Below are positions 22,990 through 36,684 of a stretch of 64,000 nucleotides of DNA, one piece after another; within the stretch, counting starts at the first letter, position 1, and each line of letters starts with the position of its first letter. Under the pieces are notes generated by a model, which was given only the letters and a program-made list of their open reading frames with translations, was not told the origin of the DNA and made no database searches. A program made the position numbers and the translations under genes. The DNA is from an uncultured Pseudomonadota bacterium (GTDB lineage Bacteria; Pseudomonadota; Gammaproteobacteria; Steroidobacterales; Woeseiaceae), in the NCBI GenBank assembly GCA_913055625.1, contig CAJXJW010000003.1, positions 310,001 to 374,000 on the forward strand. The letters run 5' to 3'.

Positions 22990-24042
22990 ATGGCTGCGAC
23001 TCGACGCTCCTCTTCCGCGCGGCAGGCCCTGCCCCGATACCGCTGGGCCGACTACGACGACGACGCGCTCCTCGACCTGCGCTTCAGCAGCCTTCGGCTC
23101 CGGCTGCGCAACAGCCTGTTCTGGCCGGACATCGAACGCCTGAACGGCGAGCTCGAACGCCGCGGCCTGCGCTTTCGGCCGCACGTGTGGATGTCCACCG
23201 AATGGTTCTCGCCGGACGGCGTGCCGGGATTCGCCGTGCCGTTCTACCTCGCCCACCCGCGCCTGAAACAGCTCGAGCGCAACATGATGGGCGACGTCGA
23301 AGGCGGCAGCCGCAAATGGCGCATGCGCATCCTCCGTCACGAAACCGGCCACGCGATCGACAACGCGTACGCGCTGCGCCGGCGCGCGGACTGGCGCCGC
23401 GTGTTCGGGCGAGCGTCCGCGCCCTATCCCGACGATTACTCGCCGCGCCCCAGCAGCCGCCGCCACGTGCTGCACCTCGGCCACTGGTACGCACAGAGCC
23501 ACCCCACCGAGGATTTCGCGGAGACCTTCGCCGTGTGGATGCAGCCCAAGGCCCGCTGGCGCCGCGACTACGCCGACTGGCCGGCGCTGCGCAAGCTGGA
23601 ATACGTCGACGAGTTGATGGAAGGCGTCTCGGCGGGGATACCTCGGAGGCGCAATCGCAACGTCGTGGAGCCGCTCTCCCGGGTCGACCAGACGCTGCGT
23701 GAACATTACGACCAGAAGAAGGAACGCTACGGCGGCGCGGAGCGACGCTACGACCGTTGGATGGCGCGCGTCTTCGTGGCGCGGGCCCGGAAACCGCGCG
23801 GACTCGCCGCCAGCCGCTTCGTGCGCGAGATCGAACCGCAACTCCGGCGCCTGCTCGAACGGAGGGCGCGACTGCACCCATATTTCGTCGACCACGCGAT
23901 CCGCACGGTACGCCAGCGGAGCCGCGCACTCGATCTCGTCCTGCGCGGACCGCGGCGCGATGCGAAGCGGCCCGTCGTGCGCCTGCACGAGCGGATCGTC
24001 CTCGACGTACTGCAACGGAACCGGGAGAACTACGCGCTATGA
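22990..24042 (+). CDS. Putative zinc-binding metallopeptidase
   Basis: A 350-aa cytoplasmic protein with no signal peptide. The zincin motif is HETGHAID near residue 118, and the segment HPTEDFAETFAVWM near 172 supplies a plausible third ligand and the conserved Glu. The protein is very Arg-rich, especially its C-terminal half. It matches a family of putative zinc-binding metallopeptidases that sit next to D-Ala-D-Ala ligase-like ATP-grasp genes, and such a gene follows here with an ATGA overlap. The substrate is unknown. The pairing suggests modification and processing of a peptide or cell-wall fragment. Confidence 0.8.
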   Translation: MAATRRSSSARQALPRYRWADYDDDALLDLRFSSLRLRLRNSLFWPDIERLNGELERRGLRFRPHVWMSTEWFSPDGVPGFAVPFYLAHPRLKQLERNMMGDVEGGSRKWRMRILRHETGHAIDNAYALRRRADWRRVFGRASAPYPDDYSPRPSSRRHVLHLGHWYAQSHPTEDFAETFAVWMQPKARWRRDYADWPALRKLEYVDELMEGVSAGIPRRRNRNVVEPLSRVDQTLREHYDQKKERYGGAERRYDRWMARVFVARARKPRGLAASRFVREIEPQLRRLLERRARLHPYFVDHAIRTVRQRSRALDLVLRGPRRDAKRPVVRLHERIVLDVLQRNRENYAL

Positions 24043-25070
24043 AACGTCGTCGCATCGTGCTGCTGACGCACGAGTCGCTCGTTCCGCCGGAAACGACGGA
24101 AGGGCTGACCGAGGCCCAGATCGACCCGTTCCGCACGGAGTACAACGTGTACTCGACACTGTGCAATCTCGGCCACCACGTCCGCGTGCTCGGTATCGGC
24201 GACCGGCTCTCCACGCTTCGCGAGACGATTCGTGAGTGGAAGCCGCACGTCGTCTTCAACCTGCTGGAGGAGTTCTCGGGCATCGCCTCCTACGATCAGC
24301 ACGTCGTCGCGTACCTGGAGATGATCCGGCAGCGCTACACCGGCTGCAATCCGCGCGGCCTGATGCTGTCGCGTGACAAGGTACTGACGAAGCAGGTGCT
24401 GGCCTGGCACCGCATCGCGACGCCGGCGTTCCACCTGTTCCCGTTCGGCAAGCGCTTCATCGAGCCGAAGAAGCTCATGTTCCCGCTGTTCGTGAAGTCG
24501 GCGACCGAGGACGCCTCGTTCGGCATCGCACAGGCCTCCATCGTCGACGACATGAAGAGTCTCCGCGAGCGCGTCGAGTTCATTCACGACCACGTGCAGA
24601 GCGACGCACTCGTCGAGGAGTACATCGACGGCCGGGAGCTGTACGTCGGCGTGCTCGGCAACACGCGCCTCACCACGTTCCCGGTGTGGGAGATCGACTT
24701 CGGCACGTCGAACAAGGGGCGCGCCGGTATCGCGACGCGACGCGTCAAGTGGGACCGCAAGTACCAGGTGAAACACGGCATCAAGACCGGGCCGGCGCCG
24801 GGGCTCTCGGACGCCGACCAGCAGCGCCTGGTCCGGCTCGCCAAGCGCATCTACCGGGCGCTGCACATCAGCGGCTATGCACGCATCGACCTGCGCATGC
24901 GCGAGGACGGCAGCGTCATGCTGCTCGAGGCCAATGCCAACCCCGACCTCACGTTCGGGGAGGACTTCGCCGAGTCCGCGGAGTCAACGGGCGTGAGCTA
25001 CGACTCGCTGATCCAGCGCATCGTCAACCTCGGAATGTCGTACCTGCCGGAGTGGCGCATGTACGAATAG
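24039..25070 (+). CDS. ATP-grasp ligase, D-alanine-D-alanine ligase-like
   Basis: A 343-aa ATP-dependent ligase. The N-terminal ~120 residues are Rossmann-like (RIVLLTHESLVPPE, then HVVFNLLEEFSGIASYDQHV). The ATP-grasp core has FVKSATEDASFGIAQAS, LVEEYIDGRELYVGVLGN and the metal-binding end VMLLEANANPDLTFGEDFA. The fold is that of D-Ala-D-Ala ligases but the sequence is clearly divergent, so the substrate is probably another amino acid or peptide. It is translationally coupled to the metallopeptidase. A dedicated peptide-tailoring pathway is a reasonable inference. Confidence 0.85.
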   Translation: MKRRRIVLLTHESLVPPETTEGLTEAQIDPFRTEYNVYSTLCNLGHHVRVLGIGDRLSTLRETIREWKPHVVFNLLEEFSGIASYDQHVVAYLEMIRQRYTGCNPRGLMLSRDKVLTKQVLAWHRIATPAFHLFPFGKRFIEPKKLMFPLFVKSATEDASFGIAQASIVDDMKSLRERVEFIHDHVQSDALVEEYIDGRELYVGVLGNTRLTTFPVWEIDFGTSNKGRAGIATRRVKWDRKYQVKHGIKTGPAPGLSDADQQRLVRLAKRIYRALHISGYARIDLRMREDGSVMLLEANANPDLTFGEDFAESAESTGVSYDSLIQRIVNLGMSYLPEWRMYE

Positions 25071-25133
25071 TGCCGAGCGCTTGCCCGCAAAAGCGCCTAT
25101 AGTCGGCGTGGATCGATCAAACGGACCCCGACC

Positions 25134-25805
25134 TTGCTGCCGACACTCTCCGCCGACGAAGCGCGCGTCATCGGCTCGCTCATCGAAAAGTCCCTCGTCA
25201 CACCCGACCAGTACCCGCTGACGCTGAATGCGCTGGTCAATGCCTGCAACCAGAAATCCAGCCGTAGCCCGGTGACGTCCTACACGAAGGGCGAGGTCCA
25301 GCGCTTCGTGCGGCAACTGAGTGATCGCAGCCTGGTGCGTATCAACGAAAATTTCCGCAGCGGCATCGAGAAATACCAACAGACGTTCTGCAACACGCGC
25401 TACGGCGATCTCAGGTTCGACGGCGCGGAACTCGCGCTCGTATGCGTACTCCTGCTCCGCGGGCCACAGACGCCGGGCGAGTTGCGCACGAACTGCCGCA
25501 GGCTGCACGACTTCGCCGACAATGACGCCGTCGTCGAGGCGCTGGACCGGCTCGCCGGGCACGCCGCCGGGCCGGTCATCGCCCGGCTGCCACGGACACC
25601 CGGCCGTCGCGATTCGGAATACATGCACCGCTTCAGCGGTGACGACCTGCCCGTGGACAATGAGCCCGCCGCGCCGGCACCGACCCCCGCTCCAGCGCAG
25701 GAACGGCGCTCGGCGCCGGATCTCGAAGCCCGGGTATCACGCCTCGAAGTCGAGGTGGCGGAACTGCGCCGTCTGCTGGACGAGAGACAGGCCGGAGAGA
25801 CCTGA
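25134..25805 (+). CDS. yceH: YceH-like protein (DUF480, UPF0502)
   Basis: A 223-aa protein of the YceH family, which has two winged-helix domains and no settled function. The hallmark N-terminal segments are LSADEARVIGSLIEKSLVTP, DQYPLTLNALVNACNQKSSR and a later RGPQTPGELRTN. The C-terminal part is a Pro/Ala linker followed by a short coiled coil (LEARVSRLEVEVAELRRLL). The start is TTG at 25134, needed to keep the family's usual N-terminus. A TATAGT element at 25099 could be its -10. It is an isolated gene, conserved mainly in Gammaproteobacteria. Confidence 0.9.
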   Translation: MLPTLSADEARVIGSLIEKSLVTPDQYPLTLNALVNACNQKSSRSPVTSYTKGEVQRFVRQLSDRSLVRINENFRSGIEKYQQTFCNTRYGDLRFDGAELALVCVLLLRGPQTPGELRTNCRRLHDFADNDAVVEALDRLAGHAAGPVIARLPRTPGRRDSEYMHRFSGDDLPVDNEPAAPAPTPAPAQERRSAPDLEARVSRLEVEVAELRRLLDERQAGET

Positions 25806-25822
25806 AACTCTCCCGACCAGCC

Positions 25823-26002
25823 CTAGTGGTCGTCGAGCTCGCCCTTGTCGTAGCGCTTGAGAAAGCGCTTGATGAACCGCCGCACCTCGCGTGCCGCGGA
25901 TGAGTCGAGGTCCTGGCACGCGTCGATGAAGCGGTCGCGCTGGTCCTTCGGAAGGCGCAACACCAGCTGGGCGTCTTTTTTCTTCTTATCCTTCCGGGAC
26001 AT
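25823..26002 (-). CDS. Small ribbon-helix-helix-like protein
   Basis: A 59-aa basic protein. After a Lys-rich N-terminus (MSRKDKKKKDA) comes QLVLRLPKDQRDRFIDACQD, a beta strand then helix pattern typical of ribbon-helix-helix (Arc/CopG/ParD-like) DNA-binding proteins. A second helix with REVRRFIKRFLKRYDKG follows. No toxin gene accompanies it, so it is more likely a stand-alone regulator than an antitoxin. It is divergent from an exported protein across an unusually AT-rich region holding several TATAC inverted repeats, which could be its operator. Confidence 0.7.
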   Translation of the reverse strand: MSRKDKKKKDAQLVLRLPKDQRDRFIDACQDLDSSAAREVRRFIKRFLKRYDKGELDDH

Positions 26003-26056
26003 GCGTTGTCGGCTTCCTGTGAGTCGGGCGGCTGACAGACCGAGTCGTCGAGCCAT

Positions 26057-26190
26057 TGTATATACGAATGATAGGCGATGCGTGGCCGCACGTGGCAAGC
26101 CCGTTAACAAATCCGTGACGTTGCGCACAGCACGTCGCCCGCCGCAGGTAGTATACATAGACATTACAAATGATGTACTATGTATATACA
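26057..26190. promoter_or_regulatory. AT-rich inverted-repeat operator region
   Basis: TGTATATAC occurs twice, at 26057-26065 and 26181-26189. GTATACATAG (26151-26160) faces CTATGTATA (26178-26186) as inverted copies around a short spacer. The stretch is far more AT-rich than its surroundings and lies between the divergent small RHH-like gene and the exported protein gene. Repeated short palindromes are typical operators for RHH regulators. That they bind this protein is inference. Confidence 0.45.
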
Positions 26191-26211
26191 TTCTCTGGCA
26201 GGAGTACAGTC

Positions 26212-26808
26212 ATGCGCAATCTCATGCTCTCGGTCGCTCTGGTGCTGGTCACTGGACTCGCCGATATCTCTACGCGCGCCGTCGCCGCCGGGCCGGACGA
26301 GGAAGGCGAAACGGCCCGCCAGGCCCAGCGCGGCTTCGAGCGAGTCACCGTGTTCGGCCAGTTCCGGCTCCTGAAGAACGGCAACGAGGTCAAGCTCGGC
26401 GAAGGCTTCTTCAGCAACGTCGCCGCGCTCCGGCTCTACCGACCGGAAGACCAGGAGGATTTCACCGGCAGGGTGGAAGAAGACGGTGAGTTCGCGTTCA
26501 AGCTGGCGCCGGGCGAGTACTACCTGATGAGCATCACGTTCAAGCACCAGGGTGAGACGATCGAGCCGGAAACGAACTATGTCATCAACGTGTCACCCGG
26601 GATCGAAGCCGCGTACATCGGCACGATCACGCTGGAGACCACGTTCGGCGGCGGTTACCACGGCATGAAGGGCAGTTTCGACCGGTTCATCGTCAGCAAC
26701 GAGTGCGCCGCGGACTGCAACCGGCGAATGGCGGACCTCGGCATCGCCGGGGCGCCGATGGAAGTCGCCCTGCCGCAATGGCAGGAGCAGGTCGCGCTGC
26801 ACGACTGA
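26212..26808 (+). CDS. Exported protein of unknown function
   Basis: A 198-aa exported protein. The ATG at 26212 follows GGAG at the usual distance and gives a normal signal peptide (residues 1-25, ending RAVAA). The mature part looks like a beta-sandwich: RVEEDGEFAFKLAPGEYYLM resembles the carboxypeptidase-regulatory or transthyretin-like fold. Two cysteines sit near the C-terminus (NECAADCNRR). It is divergent from the RHH-like gene and likely controlled from the shared AT-rich region. No enzyme motif is visible. Confidence 0.75.
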   Translation: MRNLMLSVALVLVTGLADISTRAVAAGPDEEGETARQAQRGFERVTVFGQFRLLKNGNEVKLGEGFFSNVAALRLYRPEDQEDFTGRVEEDGEFAFKLAPGEYYLMSITFKHQGETIEPETNYVINVSPGIEAAYIGTITLETTFGGGYHGMKGSFDRFIVSNECAADCNRRMADLGIAGAPMEVALPQWQEQVALHD

Positions 26809-26822
26809 CTTGGCGGTTGCGG

Positions 26823-27785
26823 CTAGAGGGCCTCGGCGCTGAGGTTCAGCAGCGCCGGCACGTCTTCCGGCTTGTACAGCGCAAGCTGCGACATCCGGAT
26901 CGGCGTCGTCGGCTCCGCCTTGAACACGATCGTCGACTTGCCGCCCAGGAATTCGACGTACGGATCAACGACGTATTCGTCGAAGACGACGCCGTAGTCG
27001 GCACCGAGGGAATTCAGCGTGTCGAGTTGTGCCTGGAGGACGTCGTCGTCGGAGAGCCCCAGCGAACGGCAGTATTCGCTCACCCGGCTGTTCAGCGACA
27101 GGTCGCTGTACCGGAGCTGCATGCGGCGGATGGCCGGCTGATAGCCCACTCCCTGCGAGAGCCCGGACACGAGGCTGCCGTCGAAATCGATGTCCATGGC
27201 GAAGTGCCTCATGTCGCGCGTCTCGCCGTCGACTTCCACGGTGAAGTAGTTGTCGGCATTGCGGAAGCGGAACGACACCGAGGCGACCTGCTCCAGGTAG
27301 CCCATGGCCGTGAGCGCCGCCGGCGAGAAGCCATACTTGCCGACGCACTCCGCCGCCGGCTCGGCAGCGTCCGCAGCACCCAGCGCGGAAAGCCGGAACT
27401 GGTGCACCGTGCTGTACACGTCGGAGTCGGTGGCCACGCGCAGGCCGTCAACGAGGAAGGCGAGTTCGTCGGGCACGTCCGGCGTGCCCGAGCTGTTGCG
27501 TTTCTGCAGGTCGGTCAGCGACAACAGGCTCAGGAAGCTCGGCGTGTCGATGCCGATGCGGTCGATCGTAACCGGGTCGCTGAAGCCCTTCACCATGACA
27601 CGAACGCCATCCACGGTTAGCTCGCCGGACATCGTGGAGCTGATGCCGTCGTACTCGACGGCCGCGTAAGGCGACATCATGACGATCGCCTGGTCGACGC
27701 TCTCACCGACTTCGTGGTGCAGGTAGGCCTTCGAGCCGAAATACCCCACGACCGCGAGGACCAGGATGCCGAGAAACAGTTTCAC
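26823..27785 (-). CDS. Membrane-anchored periplasmic protein of unknown function
   Basis: A 320-aa protein with one N-terminal membrane segment (KLFLGILVLAVVGYFGSKAY) and a large periplasmic beta-rich domain. The pattern VDGVRVMVKGFSDPVTIDRIGI is reminiscent of AsmA/DUF945-like envelope proteins, but I cannot assign a family. The start is GTG at 27785 with GAGGG upstream. It follows a 107-base gap after the next minus-strand gene, which ends in a terminator, so it has its own promoter. Confidence 0.7.
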   Translation of the reverse strand: MKLFLGILVLAVVGYFGSKAYLHHEVGESVDQAIVMMSPYAAVEYDGISSTMSGELTVDGVRVMVKGFSDPVTIDRIGIDTPSFLSLLSLTDLQKRNSSGTPDVPDELAFLVDGLRVATDSDVYSTVHQFRLSALGAADAAEPAAECVGKYGFSPAALTAMGYLEQVASVSFRFRNADNYFTVEVDGETRDMRHFAMDIDFDGSLVSGLSQGVGYQPAIRRMQLRYSDLSLNSRVSEYCRSLGLSDDDVLQAQLDTLNSLGADYGVVFDEYVVDPYVEFLGGKSTIVFKAEPTTPIRMSQLALYKPEDVPALLNLSAEAL

Positions 27786-27866
27786 GTTGTGCGACCCTCT
27801 TGGCGCCAGTATGCGTAGAGCGGTCCATTGTCGCGAAGTGGCTCACGGACAGATACGGCGGGGTTC

Positions 27867-27891
27867 ACAAAAAGGGGCACCGGGGTGCCGG
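27867..27891 (-). terminator. Rho-independent terminator
   Basis: On the minus strand GGCACC and GGTGCC form a short stem (plus-strand 27876-27881 and 27884-27889) followed by CC and a run of five T (27873-27869). It lies just past the stop of the 232-aa membrane protein gene. The loop is only two bases by strict pairing, so the real stem is probably shorter. Confidence 0.6.
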
Positions 27892-27892
27892 G

Positions 27893-28591
27893 TCAGCGTG
27901 GCAGTACCTGGAGCGTCTCCCGGACGCGATCGAGATGTGCGGCCAGCACCTCGTCGCGCAGGTTCGCCTTGGCGCCGCCCTCGAGCAGCTCGGAGGCCGT
28001 GTGTCCGTGGGGCTCGAGGTCGTCGATGAAGATGATCATGAGCTCCCTGCGGCGAGACTCGTCGGTCAGGTGCACGAGGCGAGCGTAGGCGAAGTTGGCC
28101 GGAAACGTATAGCCGTGCGAGGCCAGCAGCTCGCGCGCCATGGCACCGTCGGTGCCGCGCCGGCGCTTCCGGTTCGGGTCGGACTCCACGATCTCGGCGT
28201 CCGTGAAGAACGCCGTATCGCCCAGCGTGACCCGCAGCGGGGAGTCGTCGTAGTCGTAGGTGTAGTCGTTATCCGGGAGATAGCCCTCGTACTGCACCCA
28301 GTAGACACTCTTGAGCTTGTCGTCCGCCGTCGTCTCGACGAAGAAGTGCTGCTCCGTGTCGGCGACGCCGTAGAGAATGAACTTCTGGCCGCCGACATGG
28401 CGGTACGTGGAATCAAACCGGAGAATGACCGACGGGTCGTGATCGGAGACGAGATCGTTGCCGGTTACGGTTCGCGCCAGCCCGGTGAATTCGGGCGCGG
28501 TCGTGAAGCGCCCGCGATCGCTGTAGTACCAATGCGCACCGGCGACGCCAGCCACGACGATGACGATGATGACGAGCACGGCCTTCTTCAC
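27893..28591 (-). CDS. Membrane-anchored protein of unknown function
   Basis: A 232-aa protein with a hydrophobic anchor (KKAVLVIIVIVVAGVAGAHW) and a soluble periplasmic domain. That domain contains VYWVQYEGYLPDNDYTYDYD and RLVHLTDESRRRELMIIFID. GTG at 28591 is chosen because GGGGGAG stands six bases before it; the alternative upstream start lacks this. It is followed by a terminator and lies 57 bases beyond the sigma-factor stop, so it could be read through from that operon. No family recognised. Confidence 0.7.
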   Translation of the reverse strand: MKKAVLVIIVIVVAGVAGAHWYYSDRGRFTTAPEFTGLARTVTGNDLVSDHDPSVILRFDSTYRHVGGQKFILYGVADTEQHFFVETTADDKLKSVYWVQYEGYLPDNDYTYDYDDSPLRVTLGDTAFFTDAEIVESDPNRKRRRGTDGAMARELLASHGYTFPANFAYARLVHLTDESRRRELMIIFIDDLEPHGHTASELLEGGAKANLRDEVLAAHLDRVRETLQVLPR

Positions 28592-28648
28592 GATTGCTCC
28601 CCCAATCGAGTGGAACATGGGGATGCACTATACACCGGTGCCTGTTGA

Positions 28649-29347
28649 TCAGCCGTCCTTGCCAGGAGACAAACGCCTGACCTCCGCCAGCACATTGCGG
28701 ACAATTGAATCGCAGCGTTCGCCAGCGAACTCGTGAATGCCGATTCGCGAAGCATCACCGACTTCAAGGAGCCTTTCCTGGAGCAAGACCCGGGCGCGGT
28801 GGAAGCGGGTCTTCACGGTCGCCTCCTTGATGTCCAGCATCTCGGCGACCGCATTGACGCTGCACTGCTCGACGGCACGCAGCATGAAGACCGTGCGGAA
28901 ATTGTCCGGCAGTTCGTCGATACAGTCCTCCAGCACCTGGCGCAGCTGAGCGTTGGCAAGCTCGCCGTCCGGGCGCATCTGCTGGTGCACGGGCTTCGCC
29001 AGGTGAAGCACGTTCTCGAACTCGGTGTCTTCCATATTCTGATACCGGCGGGCTTTCCGTAGTTGCAGAAGCGCAGCATTGCGGACGATCCGCGCAAGCC
29101 ATCCACCCAGTGCTTCCGGTTGGCGCAGGTCGGCGAGATGTTCGTAGGCCTTGACGTAAGACTCCTGCACTACATCCATCGCCTCGGCATCGCTGCTAAC
29201 GATGCTGCGTGCCAGGCGAAACAGGCGCTGGTTGTAGCGCCGCATGATGCCTTCGTACGCCTCGATGTCGCCGTCGAGGACGCGCCGGATCAATGTCCCG
29301 TCGGAGTCCTCGTCCGGCAGCATGTGCCGCTGTGTCGTCTCTGTCAT
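28649..29347 (-). CDS. ECF-type RNA polymerase sigma factor
   Basis: A 232-aa alternative sigma factor. Region 2 contains YNQRLFRLARSIVSSDAEAMD then VVQESYVKAYEHL; region 4 contains LPDNFRTVFMLRAVEQCSV and IKEATVKTRFHRARVLLQE. A C-terminal extension of ~35 residues carries HEFAGERCDSIVRNVL, seen in one RpoE-like subgroup. No anti-sigma gene is adjacent. It is the last gene of a ferritin-like/cytochrome c/sigma operon, and its probable target motif precedes that operon, so it should amplify its own synthesis. The same motif stands before two more redox operons. Confidence 0.93.
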   Translation of the reverse strand: MTETTQRHMLPDEDSDGTLIRRVLDGDIEAYEGIMRRYNQRLFRLARSIVSSDAEAMDVVQESYVKAYEHLADLRQPEALGGWLARIVRNAALLQLRKARRYQNMEDTEFENVLHLAKPVHQQMRPDGELANAQLRQVLEDCIDELPDNFRTVFMLRAVEQCSVNAVAEMLDIKEATVKTRFHRARVLLQERLLEVGDASRIGIHEFAGERCDSIVRNVLAEVRRLSPGKDG

Positions 29348-29369
29348 GATGCCCTCTTGTTGTCCGGTG

Positions 29370-29804
29370 TTACCGGACGCCCTCGCACAGTGGCGAGTCC
29401 TCCACCAGGGTCTCCAGCCACTCGATCAGCTGCGTTCGACGGGCGTCATCCCGGATGCCCGCAAAGCCCATTGTAGTACCGGGAATCGCGTCGAGCGGCG
29501 ACCGAAGAAACCAGTCGAGCGACTCGGCGTCCCAGGTAACCCGCGCCTCGCGCATCGCCGGCGAATACTCGAACCCCTGCACCGTCCCGGAGACCCGCCC
29601 GAAAAGCCCGCAATGCAGCGGCCCGGTTCGGTTCCGGTCCGGCGAATGGCAGCCGATGCACTGGCCATAGATATCCTGCCCGGCCGCGCCGGTATCCGTC
29701 CCCCCCACAACTCCGCCGAAAAGTGACGGCGCCGCCGCAATGCACCCAACCAGCAACAGGAGAAGAGCTTTTGCCAGACGACACATTGCGACGGCCGCCG
29801 TCAT
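29370..29804 (-). CDS. Class I cytochrome c, exported
   Basis: A 144-aa monohaem cytochrome with a signal peptide (about residues 1-27). Haem site CIGCH occurs in GQCIGCHSPDRNRTGP. Conserved mitochondrial-type elements follow: GLFGRVSGTVQGFEYSPA, WFLRSPLDAIPGTTMGFAGI with the Met ligand, and a closing helix LIEWLETLV. An unusual Cys replaces the common Asn in GPLHCGLFGR. The ATG shares one base with the ferritin-like gene's stop (TGATG), and the sigma-factor gene starts 22 bases after its stop. The three genes form one operon. Confidence 0.9.
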   Translation of the reverse strand: MTAAVAMCRLAKALLLLLVGCIAAAPSLFGGVVGGTDTGAAGQDIYGQCIGCHSPDRNRTGPLHCGLFGRVSGTVQGFEYSPAMREARVTWDAESLDWFLRSPLDAIPGTTMGFAGIRDDARRTQLIEWLETLVEDSPLCEGVR

Positions 29805-30409
29805 CAAGAGAAGAAGGCGCCGGGAACCGGATCGAGCCCGAGGGCATGACGCAGGACCGCCCAGTGCATCGCCTCATCGGCCAGGATACTGGCGGCGGCG
29901 CTCGACAGTTCGCGATTGTCGAACGCGGGAATTGCGCCAGCGTACGCACTGACCGCACCGCGCTCCAGCCCTGCCGCGAAGTTCAGGACGTCGGCCTGGT
30001 TCTTGAGCTTTTCCACCGGAAAGTCGTACTGCTTCAGCGCGTCCGGTGCATCGCCACCCAGCTTGCGAATCGCGGCCGCAAGCGCCTCGACGTGTTCTTT
30101 GTGATGCCCCTGGAATTTCACGGCCACCTTGAGAACGGCCGGTTCGAGCAGCCCGCTTTCCGCGCCGAGCTGGTACGCGGCAACCGCCTCGTGCTCCGCC
30201 GCCACGGCGGTCCGCAGGATGCGCACGTCCTGTGCCGCGGCCGCGTCGCCGATCCCGGCCGCAATTGCCGTCGATTGCCCGCCGAGCATCGCCACCGCGA
30301 CGCCGGAAAACGTCAGCGCTCCAGCCTCGGCGATGAATTTCCGGCGGCTCCTGCGCGCCGTCTCGACGAGGAGCTCTGCCGGCGCATTCTTCAGATCTTC
30401 GTTGTGCAT
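29804..30409 (-). CDS. Tat-exported ferritin-like four-helix protein
   Basis: A 201-aa protein with a twin-arginine signal (SRRKFIAEAGAL near residues 21-32), so it is exported folded, probably with cofactor. The mature part is a helical bundle with carboxylate/His pairs AAEHEAVAAYQLG, FQGHHKEHVEAL, LERGAVSAYAGAI and ILADEAMHWAVLRHALG. This is the pattern of a ferritin-like diiron domain. It may store, oxidise or detoxify metal or peroxide in the periplasm. First gene of the operon with cytochrome c and the ECF sigma factor, with GAGG before the ATG. A sigma-type motif lies 70-98 bases upstream. Confidence 0.88.
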   Translation of the reverse strand: MHNEDLKNAPAELLVETARRSRRKFIAEAGALTFSGVAVAMLGGQSTAIAAGIGDAAAAQDVRILRTAVAAEHEAVAAYQLGAESGLLEPAVLKVAVKFQGHHKEHVEALAAAIRKLGGDAPDALKQYDFPVEKLKNQADVLNFAAGLERGAVSAYAGAIPAFDNRELSSAAASILADEAMHWAVLRHALGLDPVPGAFFS

Positions 30410-30479
30410 ATCACTAACCTCTTGAAATCGTTTGTGTTGGCGGTGCCCGGCGGGCGGTGCACCGCGTATCTAATGCGGG

Positions 30480-30507
30480 AGATGCAAATGGAGGCCCAAA
30501 GGTTCCC
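30480..30507 (-). promoter_or_regulatory. Candidate ECF sigma promoter, ferritin-like operon
   Basis: On the minus strand GGGAACCTTT (30507-30498), twelve bases, then GCATCT (30485-30480). The same two elements with identical spacing precede two other operons nearby. The arrangement resembles known ECF -35 (GGAAC-type) and -10 boxes. A start site near 30473 would give a leader of ~64 bases to the ferritin-like gene. Confidence 0.75.
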
Positions 30508-30528
30508 ACGACCTCCGGGCCCGGGCGC

Positions 30529-31692
30529 CTACAGCGACTTCAGGTACTCGACGAGGTCGGACTTCTCGTCATCCAGCAGCCCGAGATTCAGGACCAGGTC
30601 GTAGTGATCCACGACGGCATCCAGGGTCTCGAAGGCGCCGTTGTGGTAGTACGGGGCGTGATGCCAGAGCGCGCGCAACGGCGTGGTCCGGTACATGCGC
30701 GTGATCGTCCGCGTGGCGTACAGCGGATCCGCGCCGACCTCGTGTGCCTCGTGCAGGGTCGTCCCGGCATCCGTCAGCGCCGGGCCGCTGTGACAGCCCG
30801 AGCATTCGGCCTTGCCCTCGAAGAGCTGCTGCCCGCGATCGGCTGCCACGGCGTCAAAACTGCCGTCCGGAGGAAGCGGCGGTTCAAGCGTTTCCTGGTA
30901 CTCGAGCAACGCCGGCAACTTCGGGGTCACGAGGTCCGGGTCCGCCTGCACGCTGATACCGAGGTGCGGCTCCTCGAAGTTTCCCTGCCCGCCCATCTGC
31001 GTGATCGCGACGTAGGCGTTCCAGTACGAGACCGGGCCCTCGCCGGTGTAGGTCTCCAGCGCGACGTCCTTGAGGCCATAAGCGGGTGCGATCACGACCG
31101 GGTCACTGATGCCGTCGATGTTCCAGTACGGGTCGTACATACCGGGACCCCACGACCGGAGCTGCGCTCTCTCCACCGGCTTGTCGTCGAAGAAGGGCGA
31201 CAGCGAGATGATCAGCCCCGGGTCGAGGTCCCGCGCGGGCCAGCCGTCCTGGCGTTTTCCAACGCCGTCGACGACCGAGTCGTCGACGTCCGAGTGGCAC
31301 AACGCGCAGGTGATGCCGAAGGACGTGACGCGGCCGTCCTCGCTCACCTCCGCTTTCACACCCACGACGGCGTCCAGCCGCAACAGCTCCACCGTGGTTG
31401 CCGGGTCGCTGAGGTCGGCACTGGCCAGCAGCCCGTCGGGCAGTACTTCCGAGTCCACCTTCAGGCCGACGCCGAGCGCGACCTCGGGGCTTATCGTTTC
31501 CACGACCTCGTGGAATCGCAGAACATCTGTCCACAAGGCTTCGTCGCCGTAAGTGTCGTAGCGAAACGTCTCCTGCGGATCGAACGACGCCGGCGGCGGC
31601 TCCTCGACAGGCAGCGTGAGGTCGTTGTCCGAGCATCCCGCCGACAGGAAGGCGGCGAGTACGGTGATTGCGTATGTCGCAGGTCTGATCAT
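30529..31692 (-). CDS. Dihaem cytochrome c lipoprotein, peroxidase/MauG-like
   Basis: A 387-aa lipoprotein (lipobox LSAGC near residue 20) with two haem sites, CALCH near residue 130 and CSGCH near 299. The closing segment TPLRALWHHAPYYHNGAFET then LDAVVDHYDL is typical of di-haem peroxidase/MauG relatives, with haem ligands around it. It probably reduces peroxide or carries out an oxidation at the membrane, receiving electrons from a small cytochrome such as the one in the adjacent operon. The candidate ECF promoter 36-63 bases upstream of its ATG puts it in the same regulon. Confidence 0.88.
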   Translation of the reverse strand: MIRPATYAITVLAAFLSAGCSDNDLTLPVEEPPPASFDPQETFRYDTYGDEALWTDVLRFHEVVETISPEVALGVGLKVDSEVLPDGLLASADLSDPATTVELLRLDAVVGVKAEVSEDGRVTSFGITCALCHSDVDDSVVDGVGKRQDGWPARDLDPGLIISLSPFFDDKPVERAQLRSWGPGMYDPYWNIDGISDPVVIAPAYGLKDVALETYTGEGPVSYWNAYVAITQMGGQGNFEEPHLGISVQADPDLVTPKLPALLEYQETLEPPLPPDGSFDAVAADRGQQLFEGKAECSGCHSGPALTDAGTTLHEAHEVGADPLYATRTITRMYRTTPLRALWHHAPYYHNGAFETLDAVVDHYDLVLNLGLLDDEKSDLVEYLKSL

Positions 31693-31727
31693 GGCATCTC
31701 TCGCAGAACAGGTTGAACGTCACCGCC

Positions 31728-31755
31728 AGATGCAGCCCACCGCGGAAAGGTTCCC
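31728..31755 (-). promoter_or_regulatory. Candidate ECF sigma promoter, dihaem cytochrome gene
   Basis: Minus-strand GGGAACCTTT (31755-31746), twelve bases, then GCATCT (31733-31728), identical in both boxes and spacing to the motifs at 30480 and 32843. The predicted start near 31721 leaves a ~29-base leader before the dihaem lipoprotein ATG at 31692. Confidence 0.75.
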
Positions 31756-31795
31756 GACTGCGATTCGCGCATCCGGATACGGCCCCGGTCCGTGC

Positions 31796-32596
31796 CTACT
31801 CACCACCGTTGATCAGCGCGAACGCCTGGTGGTTATGAATGGACTCCAGGCTCTCGACGTGAATCCGGATGCCTGCGTCTCCGCATCGCCGCCGCAGCGC
31901 GAGATAGACGTCTCGCGCAACATCCTCGACGAACTTCGGCGACTCGTAGGCCGTCTCGGTGACGATCTTCTCGTCAACGCGCTTGAGTACGCCGTACACG
32001 TCGCACGAAGCACATGCTTCGACCAGCATGACCAACTCATCGATCGGAACGGGCTCCCCGGGCTCGAGATCGATGGATACAACGGTGCGCTGGTTGTGGG
32101 CACCGTAGCGGGAGATCGCCTTCGAGCAGGGGCACAGCGTCGTTACGGGAATGGCGACATTCTGTGTGACGACCGGGCGCCTGCGGGCACCCGCCACGGT
32201 GAAACCCGCGCGGATGTCGAGCGTGGAGCGAATTCCGGAGACGGGCGCGATCTTCTGGACAAACCAGGGAAATCGAAGCTCGACGTTCGCATGGCTTGCA
32301 TCCACGTCCCGGCAGATCGCCTCGAACTGTGCAGCCAGCTCGCTCACGGACAGGCGCCCGTCCAGGTTCTCGAAGGCTTCCACGAGCCTCGACATGTGTG
32401 TGCCGCGCTGGTCTTTCCGCACGGCGACGGCAGCGGCAATCTCGACAACCGTCTGCTGGCGAACGCCGTCCGTATCAACGATCTCAAAAGGGAGGTGCAG
32501 GCCGCGTATACCCGCCTCGTCGATCGCGATACCACGCCGGTCCTCCAGCGACTGGATATCCGGCAACGGCATGAAGGAGTTTCGCGTCGACGTCAT
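31796..32596 (-). CDS. folE2: GTP cyclohydrolase FolE2 (type IB)
   Basis: A 266-aa enzyme that converts GTP to 7,8-dihydroneopterin triphosphate, the first step of folate and related pterin synthesis. Diagnostic segments are KDQRGTHMSRLVEAF, then VTTLCPCSKAISRYGAHNQR with the metal-binding Cys, and CASCDVYGVLKRVDE. Unlike zinc-dependent FolE, this type tolerates other metals and is often induced when zinc is scarce or enzymes are oxidised. GGAG precedes the ATG. It follows rubredoxin by 46 bases in one operon behind a candidate ECF promoter, which suggests a stress-time backup of folate synthesis. Confidence 0.95.
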   Translation of the reverse strand: MTSTRNSFMPLPDIQSLEDRRGIAIDEAGIRGLHLPFEIVDTDGVRQQTVVEIAAAVAVRKDQRGTHMSRLVEAFENLDGRLSVSELAAQFEAICRDVDASHANVELRFPWFVQKIAPVSGIRSTLDIRAGFTVAGARRRPVVTQNVAIPVTTLCPCSKAISRYGAHNQRTVVSIDLEPGEPVPIDELVMLVEACASCDVYGVLKRVDEKIVTETAYESPKFVEDVARDVYLALRRRCGDAGIRIHVESLESIHNHQAFALINGGE

Positions 32597-32642
32597 GAGC
32601 GACTCCGCACGGCCACCGAAGAGCCGGGGTTATCCTCGTTGC

Positions 32643-32810
32643 TCATTGCATCAGCTCCATTTCGAACGAGGCCTTTGATGCGCCACAGTCCGGACAGAAC
32701 CAGTCGTCCGGGACGTCAGCCCAGGGTGTGCCGGCCGGAATGCCCTCCTCGGGCATGCCGGCCGCCTCGTCGTAGACGAAGCCGCAAACGCTGCAGATCC
32801 ACTCGTTCAT
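32643..32810 (-). CDS. Rubredoxin
   Basis: A 55-aa electron carrier with one Fe(Cys)4 centre. The ligands are C6 and C9 in [11 protein letters not shown], and C39 and C42 in [10 protein letters not shown]. The central [15 protein letters not shown] is canonical. It is a standard single-domain length. First gene of the operon with folE2, preceded by the candidate ECF motif 33-60 bases upstream. It may support reduction of oxygen or peroxide by a diiron or flavin partner. In this window the ferritin-like protein is Tat-exported, so the rubredoxin's partner must lie elsewhere. Confidence 0.96.
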
Positions 32811-32842
32811 TGCCTTGGTCCTGAATTGCCACAAGACCCCGG

Positions 32843-32870
32843 AGATGCGGACACCCGCCCAAAGGTTCCC
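32843..32870 (-). promoter_or_regulatory. Candidate ECF sigma promoter, rubredoxin-folE2 operon
   Basis: Minus-strand GGGAACCTTT (32870-32861), twelve bases, then GCATCT (32848-32843). Both boxes and the spacing are identical to those at 30480 and 31728. It sits between the upstream terminator and the rubredoxin start; the predicted transcript begins near 32836. Confidence 0.75.
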
Positions 32871-32875
32871 GGCAC

Positions 32876-32911
32876 AAAAAAAAGGCCCCGGTCAGTAATC
32901 CCGACCGGGGC
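32876..32911 (-). terminator. Rho-independent terminator
   Basis: A perfect 9-bp stem, GCCCCGGTC (32885-32893) with GACCGGGGC (32903-32911), has a 9-base loop. On the minus strand it is followed by C and eight T (32883-32876). It ends transcription from the SDR gene before the rubredoxin promoter. Confidence 0.9.
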
Positions 32912-32997
32912 TCCATTTCTCCGGGAGGCTCAAATCACTTTGAGCATCCCGGCTCATGTGCGGGAAGGCTGGCTCAGCGCCGCCCCGGAACACGCAT

Positions 32998-33759
32998 TCA
33001 GTACGCCCACGGCGCGCGCGCGAACAGGCCGCCGTCGACCCAGAGCGTCTGGCCGGAGACGAAACGTGACGCATCGCTGACGAAGAACATCAATGCGTCC
33101 GCCACGTCCGACGGCGTTCCGACGCGGCCGAGCGGCGTCAGCGGCGACCATTTCGCTTCGTAGTCCGGGTCCTCGACGAGCGTACGCTCCGAGACGATCG
33201 AACCCGGCGCGATGCAATTGACGCGGATGCCGAAAGGCCCGAGCTCGACGGCCGATACCTTCGTGAACTGCTCGATACCGCCCTTCGATGCCGTGTAGTC
33301 GACGAGCTTCGGAAAGCCGAGCTTGTTGCAGCCGGATCCCAGGTTGACGATCGAACCGCCTGCGCCGCGCTCTTTCATCTGGCGCCCGACAGCCTGCGTC
33401 ATCAGGAAGCAACCCTTCAGGTTCGTGCGAATGACCCGGTCCCAATCGGCCTCGTCGAGGTCGAGCAGCGAAGCCCAGGTCTGGATGCCGGCGTTGTTCA
33501 CGAGTGCGTCCGGCGCATGGCCGTGCCACGCGCACGCGTCGGCAACGAAGCGATCGACCTGTGTCTTATCGCCGACGTCGCCTTCGGCGCTGTACACCGG
33601 CTGCCCCTTGGCGTCGAGTTCTGCAGCGACGGCACGCGCTTCGTCGTGGGTGCCGACGTAGTTGAACGCGACCGCGAACCCGGCGTCCGCCATCGTGCGC
33701 ACGATCTGTCGGCCGATCCCGGCGCTGCCGCCGGTGACGATGGCAAACTGTTTGCTCAT
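32998..33759 (-). CDS. SDR-family oxidoreductase, FabG-like
   Basis: A 253-aa NAD(P)-dependent dehydrogenase of the classical short-chain type. Cofactor site TGGSAGIGRQI, NNAG at residue ~90, catalytic Ser in NLGSG and Tyr-Lys in DYTASKGG are all present. The closing GRVGTPSDVADALMFFVSD and TLWVDGG match glucose-1-dehydrogenase/FabG-like members. Substrate not predictable. The start at 33759 excludes a 16-residue upstream extension that lacks family similarity. It is divergent from the pectate lyase-like gene, so a role in pectin-derived sugar oxidation is possible but speculative. Confidence 0.88.
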   Translation of the reverse strand: MSKQFAIVTGGSAGIGRQIVRTMADAGFAVAFNYVGTHDEARAVAAELDAKGQPVYSAEGDVGDKTQVDRFVADACAWHGHAPDALVNNAGIQTWASLLDLDEADWDRVIRTNLKGCFLMTQAVGRQMKERGAGGSIVNLGSGCNKLGFPKLVDYTASKGGIEQFTKVSAVELGPFGIRVNCIAPGSIVSERTLVEDPDYEAKWSPLTPLGRVGTPSDVADALMFFVSDASRFVSGQTLWVDGGLFARAPWAY

Positions 33760-33840
33760 GTAGACTCCACCCCTTTGCGAATCTCTTACGCCGGCGCGCA
33801 GGAACACCCGACGTCGGTTCGGTACCTGGGGAAGTGTATA

Positions 33841-35385
33841 GTGATTTCATCGGAATCCCGACTCGGGGCGACACTGTGGATGGTGGCGTGGCTCGCGGCC
33901 TGCAATGGCAATGACGGCGAGTCAGCCACGACGTCCGCACCGGTCCCCGACTCGACCGTCACGCTGCAGGAACTCGAGGCAGGCACCTGCAACCCGGTGA
34001 TGTTCGAGCGTCAGAATCCGGGATTCACTGGCCCTGGCTACATCAACACGCCGAACACCATCGTGGCACGCGCGTCGTGGAGCATCGATTCGCCCCTCGG
34101 CGGGCCGCACGTGCTTGCTCTTCGTTTCGCGAATGGCGGCGCGACGGCTCGCTCGGGCGAACTGTCCGTGAACGAGCGCACTGTCCAGGTACCCCTGCCG
34201 CCGACCGGCGACTGGGCAAACTGGGACACGGTATCCCTCGATGTCGTACTGGCGCCGGGCCGGAACAGCCTCGAACTGCGCGCTTCGACCGGCGATGGCC
34301 TGGCCAACATCGACTCGCTCACGGTCACCGGTCCCGGCCCTTTGCCGGGAGCGTGTGGCGAGGAGGCGCCGGCAGACCCATCCGCGACGGTCGACGTCAG
34401 ATTCCTGTCGGACGAACCGGCCGGATGGGTCACGCAGGGCAATGGCGTATCGGGTGGCGGCGACCAGGCACCCGTCGTCGTGACCCGCATGGACGAGCTG
34501 CAGAAGCTGGCCTCGGGCAGCGAACCGGCCGTCATCCACGTGAGTGGCGAACTCAACGGTACGCTGACCGTCGGTTCGAACAAGACGATCATCGGCTTGC
34601 CGGGTGCCAGGATTCGCAGCGACGCGGGCGTGCTGCAGGTGTCCGATGCGCGCAACGTGATCATCCGGAATCTCGAGCTCGTCGGGGTGAACGCACGGGG
34701 GCAGGTCAACACGGTGCTGCACAATGCCGAGAACGTCTGGCTGGATCACAACACTTTCATCGACGGCAGCCCCGACATACTGCTGCTCAGCGGAACGACG
34801 GACCTCGTCACCATCTCCTGGAACGTGTTCCGGCACAGCTACTTCGGCCACGAACACATGGGCGTAAACATCGGCGCCGCGGACGACGACCTGGAGAGCC
34901 GCGGCCGGCTGCGCACCACGTTGCACCACAACTTCTATGCCGGGCTGGTCAACGAGCGCATGCCCCGGGTCCGCTTCGGCAAGGTTCACACGTTCAACAA
35001 CCTGTGCCTGGCCGGCACTGACGAGCTGACCCGCTCGTACTACGCCGTGCGTGCCGGCGTCGACGCGAACGTGCGCTCGGAGCGCAATATCTACCGCGAC
35101 TTCCACGGCCCGTCATGGTGGTGGACGTCTGAGAAGCTGGGTGCGGAGAACGCGACGGTTTTCAACTATGCGCGCAGCAACGACAACGCGGTACTGGAGT
35201 CGATCGAGGACGTCTGTGTTCCCGATTGCGTTCGCGGCCCCGTCGACATCGCGGAGCACGAGGGCGTGACGGGAAAGGCGGGCTTCTACGGCACCGGCAG
35301 TGCGTTCGAGCCGCCGTACGCGTACAGCGCCGAACCGACGGACGGCCTGGAAGCCAGGATTCGTGAGGGCGCCGGCGCCCGATGA
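33841..35385 (+). CDS. Pectate lyase-like lipoprotein (PL1 type) with N-terminal CBM-like domain
   Basis: A 514-aa surface lipoprotein. GTG at 33841 follows GGGGAAG, and the lipobox LAAC lies near residue 20. Residues ~40-170 form a CBM6/35-like jelly roll (VLALRFANGG, GDWANWDTVSLDVVL). The C-terminal part is a right-handed beta-helix of PL1 type: NKTIIGLPGARI, NVIIRNLEL, NVWLDHNTFIDG, DLVTISWNVF and MPRVRFGKVHTFNN. These are classic pectate lyase features, including the conserved Arg in the RVRFG segment. It should cleave polygalacturonate or a similar uronate polymer by beta-elimination outside the cell. Confidence 0.9.
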   Translation: MISSESRLGATLWMVAWLAACNGNDGESATTSAPVPDSTVTLQELEAGTCNPVMFERQNPGFTGPGYINTPNTIVARASWSIDSPLGGPHVLALRFANGGATARSGELSVNERTVQVPLPPTGDWANWDTVSLDVVLAPGRNSLELRASTGDGLANIDSLTVTGPGPLPGACGEEAPADPSATVDVRFLSDEPAGWVTQGNGVSGGGDQAPVVVTRMDELQKLASGSEPAVIHVSGELNGTLTVGSNKTIIGLPGARIRSDAGVLQVSDARNVIIRNLELVGVNARGQVNTVLHNAENVWLDHNTFIDGSPDILLLSGTTDLVTISWNVFRHSYFGHEHMGVNIGAADDDLESRGRLRTTLHHNFYAGLVNERMPRVRFGKVHTFNNLCLAGTDELTRSYYAVRAGVDANVRSERNIYRDFHGPSWWWTSEKLGAENATVFNYARSNDNAVLESIEDVCVPDCVRGPVDIAEHEGVTGKAGFYGTGSAFEPPYAYSAEPTDGLEARIREGAGAR

Positions 35386-35479
35386 TCCGGCCTACGAACT
35401 CAGTCGTTGATCGTGAGCACGCCCTGCGCGCCGTAGCGATTGCGCGCCGCGGCAAGTCCGTGGCCGGTGACGCGCCCGG

Positions 35480-35857
35480 CTATCGCGCGCACCCGGCAAT
35501 CGTGCGCGTGAGCTCCTTCGGCGTCATGTCGTCCGGAATCAGGGCCTCGCACGCGGCGAGGATTTCTTCGTCGCGGGTCGTCGTACGCAGGCAGTAGCAC
35601 AGGTCCGGCCCGCCGTCCGGCACCGGCAGGGCCTCCCGGCATTCGATGGCTTTCGTGGCATTCTGCTCCGGCGTCAGGGTGCTCATCAGATCGTTGCAGG
35701 CTTTCAGCCTGGCGTCCGTGTTCAGGGGTTCGTTGACGCAGGTGCAGAAGTCGATGCCGCCGGCCGAACTCTCGTCGGCGGCAACATCCTGGTTGGTCCC
35801 CGGGTCACCGCAAGCGATGACGAACAGGGCCACGAGGACGGGTACGAGAACTCTCAC
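35480..35857 (-). CDS. Small cysteine-rich lipoprotein
   Basis: About 125 aa. Signal segment RVLVPVLVALFVIAC ends in a lipobox. The mature part carries paired cysteines in DFCTCVNE, KACNDLM and LCYCLRTTT, which suggests disulfides. GTG at 35857 is preferred, since GGAG stands six bases before it; an ATG two codons earlier abuts that ribosome site. Function unknown. It is the last gene of the long sigma/kinase locus, ten bases after the DUF3592-like gene. Confidence 0.72.
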   Translation of the reverse strand: MRVLVPVLVALFVIACGDPGTNQDVAADESSAGGIDFCTCVNEPLNTDARLKACNDLMSTLTPEQNATKAIECREALPVPDGGPDLCYCLRTTTRDEEILAACEALIPDDMTPKELTRTIAGCAR

Positions 35858-35867
35858 GGGCATCTCC

Positions 35868-36242
35868 TCAGTTCTGTGCGTGAATATTGCGGCGCGCATC
35901 ACGGGCATCTTGCACGGCACTCTTCAGCATGCTCGATTCCGGGTTGGACAGGTCGTACACGACCTCAACAGCCTGGCCCTCGCTGTACCGCGCGAACTCT
36001 TTCGGCAGGACTTCGATCTCGCGTTCATACTCCGCGCCGTCACGCGCCGTGAACGCGTAGCGCACCCGGCACGCCTTGTGCGTGCGTGAGCGCCGAACCC
36101 GCTCGGCCATCACGATCGTCCCGGTCACCGTTTCGCCGTGGGACAACAGCGCGGCCATGGCCGTGGCGCGCGTCCTGATCCAGCGGAGCACGGCATAGCC
36201 GGCCACAGCGAGCAGGAGGATGGTCAATGCAAGTTCTGCCAT
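35868..36242 (-). CDS. DUF3592-like membrane protein
   Basis: A 124-aa protein with one N-terminal membrane helix (ALTILLLAVAGYAVLRWI), followed by a small beta-rich domain. That domain has the strand pair GETVTGTIV then CRVRYAFTARDG, ending EVVYDLSNPESS. The closing V-x-Y-x-P/L-x-P pattern is typical of DUF3592. It is related to the next gene upstream, so the two are probably duplicates. Role unknown, presumably at the inner membrane. Gap of 25 bases from the preceding gene. Confidence 0.75.
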   Translation of the reverse strand: MAELALTILLLAVAGYAVLRWIRTRATAMAALLSHGETVTGTIVMAERVRRSRTHKACRVRYAFTARDGAEYEREIEVLPKEFARYSEGQAVEVVYDLSNPESSMLKSAVQDARDARRNIHAQN

Positions 36243-36267
36243 GGGGCACGATTCTCCGGTTGTCGGT

Positions 36268-36675
36268 CTATGGGTATGAGCCACGTACCAGGACGGACTC
36301 CGCCGGATCGGACGGGTTGTAGAAGACCTCCACCTGCCGGCCGACGGGGTGCGCGCTGACGAGCCGTTCCTTGTCCTTTCGTGACAGGTTGTTCTGGTTG
36401 AACCGAACCACGTCGTTCTCGTAGCGCCGCCCATCGACCACGTACTCGTACTCGACGTCGACCCGGTGCCGGAGCTTGTTCGATTGCGCGCCAACGTTGC
36501 TGCGGTGCACTTCGAGGTTCGAGTGCGTCACCAGGCCCGCAACCGACGGCCACTCGAGGCTTTCCCGGGACACTGCCGTCATGTGCTTGTCGTAACGACC
36601 GTAGAGGTATGCACCCCCGACGGTCAGAACGACGACCGCAATGACGACGATGAAGTTCTTCGCGGAGTTGCTCAC
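36268..36675 (-). CDS. DUF3592-like membrane protein
   Basis: A 135-aa paralogue of the downstream protein. It has one membrane helix (NFIVVIAVVVLTVGGAYLYG) and the DUF3592-type domain VEYEYVVDGRRYENDVVRFN, closing with QVEVFYNPSDPAESVL. It follows the giant repeat lipoprotein by nine bases. The pair may chaperone or regulate envelope assembly of that protein, but only the co-location supports this. Confidence 0.78.
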   Translation of the reverse strand: MSNSAKNFIVVIAVVVLTVGGAYLYGRYDKHMTAVSRESLEWPSVAGLVTHSNLEVHRSNVGAQSNKLRHRVDVEYEYVVDGRRYENDVVRFNQNNLSRKDKERLVSAHPVGRQVEVFYNPSDPAESVLVRGSYP

Positions 36676-36684
36676 GTTGCAGGC

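Follow-up and report, generated by a model that had tools for sequence, protein, structure and literature searches.

A probable ECF29-type redox regulon with three identical promoters and a second GTP cyclohydrolase gene in a Woeseiaceae genome

The DNA studied here, called the window, is a stretch of 64,000 nucleotides from an uncultured gammaproteobacterium of the family Woeseiaceae (assembly GCA_913055625.1, contig CAJXJW010000003.1, positions 310,001 to 374,000). Its minus strand carries a 4.2-kb cluster of genes for a sigma factor of the extracytoplasmic function (ECF) type, a small cytochrome c, a ferritin-like protein, a di-haem lipoprotein, the GTP cyclohydrolase FolE2 and a rubredoxin. 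They form three units, each preceded by the same promoter motif. We propose that the cluster is probably a compact, self-amplifying (autoregulated) regulon for redox or metal stress, read from three promoters by a sigma factor of ECF29 type.

The cluster and its three promoters

The motif, GGGAACCTTT-N12-GCATCT, has three exact copies in the window, all on the minus strand (Table 1). A scan allowing up to three mismatches returned the same sites and no further match, and 100 dinucleotide shuffles of the window gave 0.17 matches on average, 2 at most and never 3. The three identical copies reported by the first-pass annotation, which was made from the letters alone, are thus borne out. Its distance of 33-98 bases to the start codons consists of correct values taken from two different measures: the starts lie 71, 36 and 33 bases past the end of the second box (33-71), and 98, 63 and 60 bases from the start of the first box (60-98).

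A second species of the genus, G007, retains all three promoters in front of the corresponding genes, as a comparison of orthologous upstream regions shows. Its sigma factor is 70% identical to that of the window and its gene order is the same: motif-rubredoxin-folE2, motif-di-haem, motif-ferritin-like-cytochrome c-sigma. Between the two species 47 of 48 box positions are identical, against 13 of 36 in the spacers and 36 of 120 in the 20-base flanks. Because the G007 sites were located by pattern, the identity of the boxes is partly due to selection, which does not apply to their placement upstream of the three corresponding genes. Exact motifs precede the di-haem homologues of G007, G015 and G211, and in G300 a homologue of 41% identity. 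In G015 the motif-di-haem gene and the sigma gene sit on different contigs, so targets can lie apart from the sigma gene.

Table 1. Features of the cluster. Scores are in bits, with the cut-off of the model in brackets; CXXCH is the haem-binding site counted.
Feature	Position	Strand	Evidence and remarks
Promoter 1	30480..30507	(-)	exact motif; precedes ferritin-like/cytochrome c/sigma operon; retained in G007
Promoter 2	31728..31755	(-)	exact motif; precedes di-haem gene
Promoter 3	32843..32870	(-)	exact motif; precedes rubredoxin-folE2; retained in G007
ECF29-type sigma factor, 232 amino acids	28649..29347	(-)	NF008888 245.5 (204); over Pfam cut-off Sigma70_r2 and Sigma70_r4_2, plus overlapping Sigma70_ECF and Sigma70_r4 only
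Small cytochrome c, 145 amino acids, one CXXCH	29370..29807	(-)	no Pfam match; NF043008 63.9, under cut-off (240); homologues adjoin sigma in relatives
Ferritin_2 protein, 201 amino acids, RR-containing signal-like N-terminus	29804..30409	(-)	PF13668 115.2 (24.7)
Di-haem lipoprotein, cytochrome c peroxidase/MauG-like, 387 amino acids	30529..31692	(-)	two CXXCH, invariant in 7 sequences; PF00034 22.5, barely above 21.3; all NCBIfam matches, including cytochrome c peroxidase/MauG, below cut-off
GTP cyclohydrolase FolE2 (GCYH-IB), 266 amino acids	31796..32596	(-)	PF02649 240.4 (25); NF010200 229 (215)
Rubredoxin, 55 amino acids	32643..32810	(-)	PF00301 78.1 (23); NCBIfam 68.7, under cut-off (90)
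Terminator-like hairpin, strong (11 pairs, 9 G-C, T run)	32885..32911	(-)	14 bases before promoter 3

The gene names given earlier hold above model cut-offs for the sigma factor, Ferritin_2 and FolE2; the rubredoxin falls below its NCBIfam cut-off, and both haem proteins are weakly matched. Residues E72, E149, E179, H182 and others of the ferritin-like protein are invariant in nine sequences, and the glutamates and histidines among them could bind a di-metal site.

Two side observations concern relatives. G007 has two ECF29-type sigma genes, L090 (G007:C30) and L091 (G007:C163), 70% and 56% identical to that of the window; each is accompanied by separate ferritin-like and cytochrome c genes, rubredoxin-folE2 stands with just one of them, and the promoter of the second has ACATC in place of GCATC. 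In G273 (L094, 5116-5366) a lipoprotein open reading frame, which is cut by the contig end and may be a di-haem gene, starts 34 bases past the end of an exact motif.

Recurrence of motif, sigma factor and gene types across Proteobacteria

The genome to which the window belongs (3,626,003 bases in 20 contigs) yields 13 matches to the motif with up to three mismatches, the three exact ones and 10 with exactly three; the reversed-pattern control yields 16. A relaxed pattern, GGGAACNTTTN{10,14}GCATC, finds only the three cluster sites, and its control finds none. Enrichment elsewhere in this genome, which the first-pass annotation proposed as a test, is therefore not seen, and the motif is instead enriched across genomes.

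Among 60 relatives, own genome included, the distribution of the sigma factor is patchy, with a match above 150 bits in four (G000, G007 with two, G015 and G058). The order as a whole has 17 exact sites of GGGAACCTTTN{11,12}GCATC in 8 of 396 genomes (5 control matches), and 16 of the 17 fall in seven genomes that carry the sigma factor. The remaining one, in G176, lies inside ruvA and was counted as chance. At the level of the phylum, 26 of 398 genomes (own included) reach at least 234 bits with the sigma profile, the next score being 152. The pattern GGGAACNTTTN{11,12}GCATC occurs 15 times in 12 of the 25 other genomes (control: 0); 14 of these sites are within 1.1 kb of the sigma gene, and the remaining one is on another small contig.

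In surveys of two classes, 369 genomes gave 10 matches, 7 of them new, and 385 genomes gave 11, with 9 new ones that include three at 200-215 bits. Together the three surveys gave 42 ECF29-type loci, one per genome; several share a genus, and the counts are uncorrected for relatedness. Loci L014, L015, L016, L017, L018 and L019, apparently the same contigs as those of G300, G211, G015, G273, G007 and G915, were not recounted. Counts of ferritin, carrier and FolE genes are based on tblastn, with profile checks on 10 and 10 proteins, and G779 is covered to 1.5 kb around the sigma gene.

Within 2 kb of the sigma gene, a ferritin-like gene is present at 34 of the 42 loci (Ferritin_2 at 12, DUF4142 at 22), an electron-carrier gene at 32 (cytochrome c at 9, cupredoxin at 23) and both at 30. 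An exact motif core lies within the same distance at 28 loci, and a core with at most one mismatch at 38. Farther out, 367,883 bases contain 3 exact and 15 one-mismatch cores, so the figure of 38 is partly due to chance and the exact 28 of 42 is safer.

The first-pass annotation had the sigma factor recognise the motif and control itself. Co-occurrence of motif and sigma factor across Proteobacteria, the motif before the sigma operon and its retention in G007 argue well for this, and a sigma factor that reads the motif would raise its own operon.

The ECF29 assignment and the GTP cyclohydrolase link

The published consensus of ECF29 promoters is GGGAAC / GCATCCAA, and RpoE8 of Sinorhizobium meliloti is classed as ECF29 (PMC6180224). 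GGGAAC and GCATC are exact in all three window promoters. Residues from about 203 to 232 of the sigma factor make up a C-terminal tail that contains HEFAGxRCDxIV and an invariant Cys212; F207, G209, C212 and V219 are invariant in an alignment of 20 sigma factors, and FxGxRC is common to the window sigma and RpoE8. We file the sigma factor as ECF29-type on the promoter consensus and the tail. PMC8999054 lists ECF29 among the groups without an anti-sigma factor and with extensions. A scan of 23001-38000 for the HxxxCxxC zinc motif of anti-sigma factors gave no believable gene, its one match lying on the strand opposite to the sigma gene.

Other groups were considered. ECF26, the first candidate, was rejected because the promoters mapped for it are different, as are its anti-sigma partners. 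Beside the sigma gene, Pfam and the zinc-motif scan found no zinc anti-sigma factor of the ChrR type known from the RpoE/ChrR pairs of ECF11, and Pfam found no SnoaL-like C-terminal domain of the kind that marks ECF41 and ECF56.

The idea that motif and sigma type were unprecedented is not supported, as both are those of ECF29 with its published consensus (PMC6180224). Among the papers listed by a literature search with GGGAACCTT and sigma, none has a title recognisable as related. The motif is not new; the gene composition appears to be. According to PMC6180224, no ECF29 sigma factor had been studied in detail by 2018. The closest known system is the RpoE8 locus (SMb20592), which we retrieved by its published 39-base promoter. 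It resembles the window in its GGGAAC...GCATC promoter of the same spacing class, in the FxGxRC tail (the protein ends FAFAGKRCE), in having no known anti-sigma factor, and in a ferritin-superfamily-type gene (DUF4142) and an electron-carrier gene (cupredoxin) that follow the sigma gene; copies of the motif precede the sigma and DUF4142 genes. The two sigma factors are only 36% identical, however. DUF4142 and cupredoxin stand where the window has Ferritin_2 and cytochrome c, the -10 element ends CCAA instead of TCC or TGG, and of the di-haem, rubredoxin and GTP cyclohydrolase genes of the window our comparison detected none. The sulfite regulons of S. meliloti RpoE1 and RpoE4 (ECF26) are ECF regulons that are also small and autoregulated and include cytochrome c and pseudoazurin (PMC3511301, PMC6180224), but they differ in a membrane anti-sigma factor, a sulfite oxidase target and promoters of GGAAT / GTC type.

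The earlier description of FolE2 as a backup GTP cyclohydrolase holds, since the genome encodes one FolE1 elsewhere besides the one FolE2 of the cluster. Excluding the own genome, where the link was first noticed, 5 of 41 genomes have a FolE1 gene (all PF01227) within 2 kb of the sigma gene: G688, G549, G915, G1115 and G1197, from five different families. The expected number is 0.059 (Poisson P 5e-9). The sigma-linked FolE1 is an extra copy in four of them and the sole FolE1 in G915. A motif-like promoter stands directly before FolE1 in G1197, G549 and G688, with scores matched by 1, 3 and 4 of 1440 background windows; another precedes a Roseibium plasmid operon in which folE1 comes immediately before the sigma gene (4 of 1440). 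Promoter scoring found none directly before FolE1 in G1115 and G915. The background takes in ends of short contigs with true sites in them, which makes these counts conservative. With FolE1 in five genomes and FolE2 in G007 and the own genome, two enzyme families fill one slot. FolE2 genes are also found in G549 and G679; they are 26 and 29% identical to that of the window, and no rubredoxin partner was seen on reading their surroundings.

Stress control of GTP cyclohydrolases is known, even by an ECF sigma factor of another group. In two Rhodobacter species singlet oxygen induces folE2, whose expression depends on RpoE (PMC7074977), and FolE of Pseudomonas is induced by light (PMC9758184). 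Cupriavidus metallidurans needs three FolE enzymes; one of them, FolE_IA, is independent of RpoD and gives protection from cadmium, peroxide and paraquat (PMC10882993). The species offers a parallel for several GTP cyclohydrolases in one cell serving differing metal and oxidative stress; its FolE_IB2, however, is under Zur, and the excerpt of that paper reports no ECF29 link. We found no link between GTP cyclohydrolase and ECF29 in print, in the open-licence literature covered. The pairing of ECF29 with two GTP cyclohydrolase families raises the question, directly testable, of why redox stress needs extra pterin synthesis.

Proposed mechanism and its alternatives

In the mechanism that we propose, the C-terminal tail with its invariant cysteine, and not a recognised anti-sigma factor, might hold the sigma factor inactive until redox or metal (thiol-reactive) stress acts on the tail and sets it free. 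Active sigma would then supply the ferritin-like protein, cytochrome c and the di-haem, peroxidase-like lipoprotein outside the membrane. From the third promoter, rubredoxin and a second, metal-flexible GTP cyclohydrolase would be made, and FolE2 would keep pterin and folate synthesis running when the zinc-dependent FolE1 fails. A wider reading, to which we give slightly less than an even chance, takes ECF29 for a Proteobacteria-wide stress response with a sigma factor gated by its cysteine-bearing tail without an anti-sigma factor, in which fixed slots (ferritin-like protein, electron carrier, recurrently a spare GTP cyclohydrolase) are filled by unrelated proteins. If this is true, pterin supply would be a recurrent part of the cell-envelope redox response. 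For the little-studied ECF29 group, the locus provides a promoter in three identical copies, a list of targets that persists between species and a residue that may act as the sensor.

Several observations weigh against the proposed regulon. The trailing CAA of the published -10 element is not retained, the window promoters having TCC, TCC and TGG. The stricter pattern is absent from 13 of the 25 phylum-survey genomes, no exact core lies within 2 kb of the sigma gene at 14 of the 42 loci, four of which have none even with one mismatch allowed, and the G058 sigma factor (158.8 bits) has neither motif nor core genes nearby. The rubredoxin-folE2 unit was seen in two genomes only. The tail is modelled at low confidence (mean predicted local distance difference test, pLDDT, 72.4; predicted template modelling score 0.42; residues 203-213 at pLDDT below 50). 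A same-strand gene with a membrane anchor (27893-28618), which begins 30 bases past the sigma stop, could be a private regulator. In S. meliloti, 126-fold overexpression of RpoE8 led to no detected target (PMC6180224), which may mean that the sigma factor needs activation or that the motif needs more than the sigma factor. Finally, FolE_IB enzymes of Cupriavidus use several metals but are more sensitive to peroxide than FolE_IA (PMC10882993). Metal shortage would therefore suit FolE2 better than peroxide, and by this analogy the sensitivity speaks against a plain peroxide response.

Among the alternatives, the most probable one keeps the sigma factor in charge of the promoters and makes the trigger photo-oxidative, with the cluster as a counterpart of the Rhodobacter RpoE/ChrR regulon. 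The first-pass annotation saw such a resemblance to a singlet-oxygen response, and the presence of folE2 in that regulon gives the analogy a precedent, as does the light-induced FolE of Pseudomonas. The Rhodobacter regulon is also autoregulated and contains cytochrome c besides folE2 (PMC7074977). RpoE, however, belongs to ECF11 (PMC8999054), is paired with the zinc anti-sigma factor ChrR, and counts photolyase and RpoHII among its regulon members. The annotation tables of the relatives list no photolyase, cyclopropane-synthase-like or ChrR-like gene (no profile search for photolyase was made), and the zinc-motif scan recognised no ChrR-like gene near the window sigma. The Rhodobacter RpoE promoter differs from the ECF29 type, as does the sigma group, and we regard a photo-oxidative trigger as unlikely. 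A trigger by nitric oxide or another respiratory poison, removed by the carriers and rubredoxin, is somewhat less probable still. L102 and L155 have NnrS beside the sigma gene, L109 has a truncated globin with an upstream motif, and L104 and L105 have hemerythrin genes, but such neighbours are scattered, with NnrS in 1 of the 42 survey loci and none of them in the window cluster.

The boxes might also belong to another regulator, an ECF sigma factor or an activator, with the sigma gene as a passenger of its operon. The silent overexpression of RpoE8 would agree with this, and so would the 17 sigma-like matches (E <= 0.001) in the own genome. Yet the motif-bearing genomes of the order carry this sigma type, bar the one chance match inside ruvA, and across many families the motif is concentrated near the sigma gene, which leaves the passenger explanation improbable. 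That the three copies are due to chance or a recent duplication, as their small number in a single genome might suggest, has a negligible probability: no shuffle reached three matches, and the boxes are constant while spacers and flanks vary between copies and between species. The ECF29-type regulon for redox or metal stress remains our preferred reading.

The surroundings of the cluster add some detail. The hairpin before promoter 3 would terminate the upstream SDR gene and is the longest of four hairpins in the stretch; the class is not enriched (4 against 3.8 in shuffles). No sigma-70-like promoter was found at 28000-34000 (shuffles: 0.9). Only 40 bases separate folE2 from promoter 2, and 21 the di-haem gene from promoter 1; as all units have the same direction, read-through is possible. 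Downstream of the sigma gene, two genes of the same strand (26823-28618) both have N-terminal membrane anchors. Neither has a Pfam or NCBIfam match or a tblastn match at E 1e-3 in 207 other loci, and the G007 contig ends there. The nearer one, 27893-28618, could share a transcript with the sigma gene, which makes the earlier placement of sigma as the last gene of its operon uncertain.

Further genes accompany ECF29-type sigma factors in other genomes. A small membrane-type open reading frame and a DUF2231 gene lie beside the sigma gene in L103 (4311-5064), L164 (8067-8881) and L172 (6848-7671), and in L098 (5169-6023), at a place separate from the sigma locus, an exact motif precedes a DUF2231 reading frame; this may be a further regulon member. 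In G733 (L155, 4895-9895) the neighbours of the sigma gene include NnrS, a SirB2-like gene and a SoxB-like gene of the 5'-nucleotidase family but no ferritin-like gene. In Methylocystis heyeri (L109, 5852-7689) three exact motifs face a truncated globin/2Fe-2S pair, a DUF6522 gene and a DUF4142 gene that surround the sigma gene.

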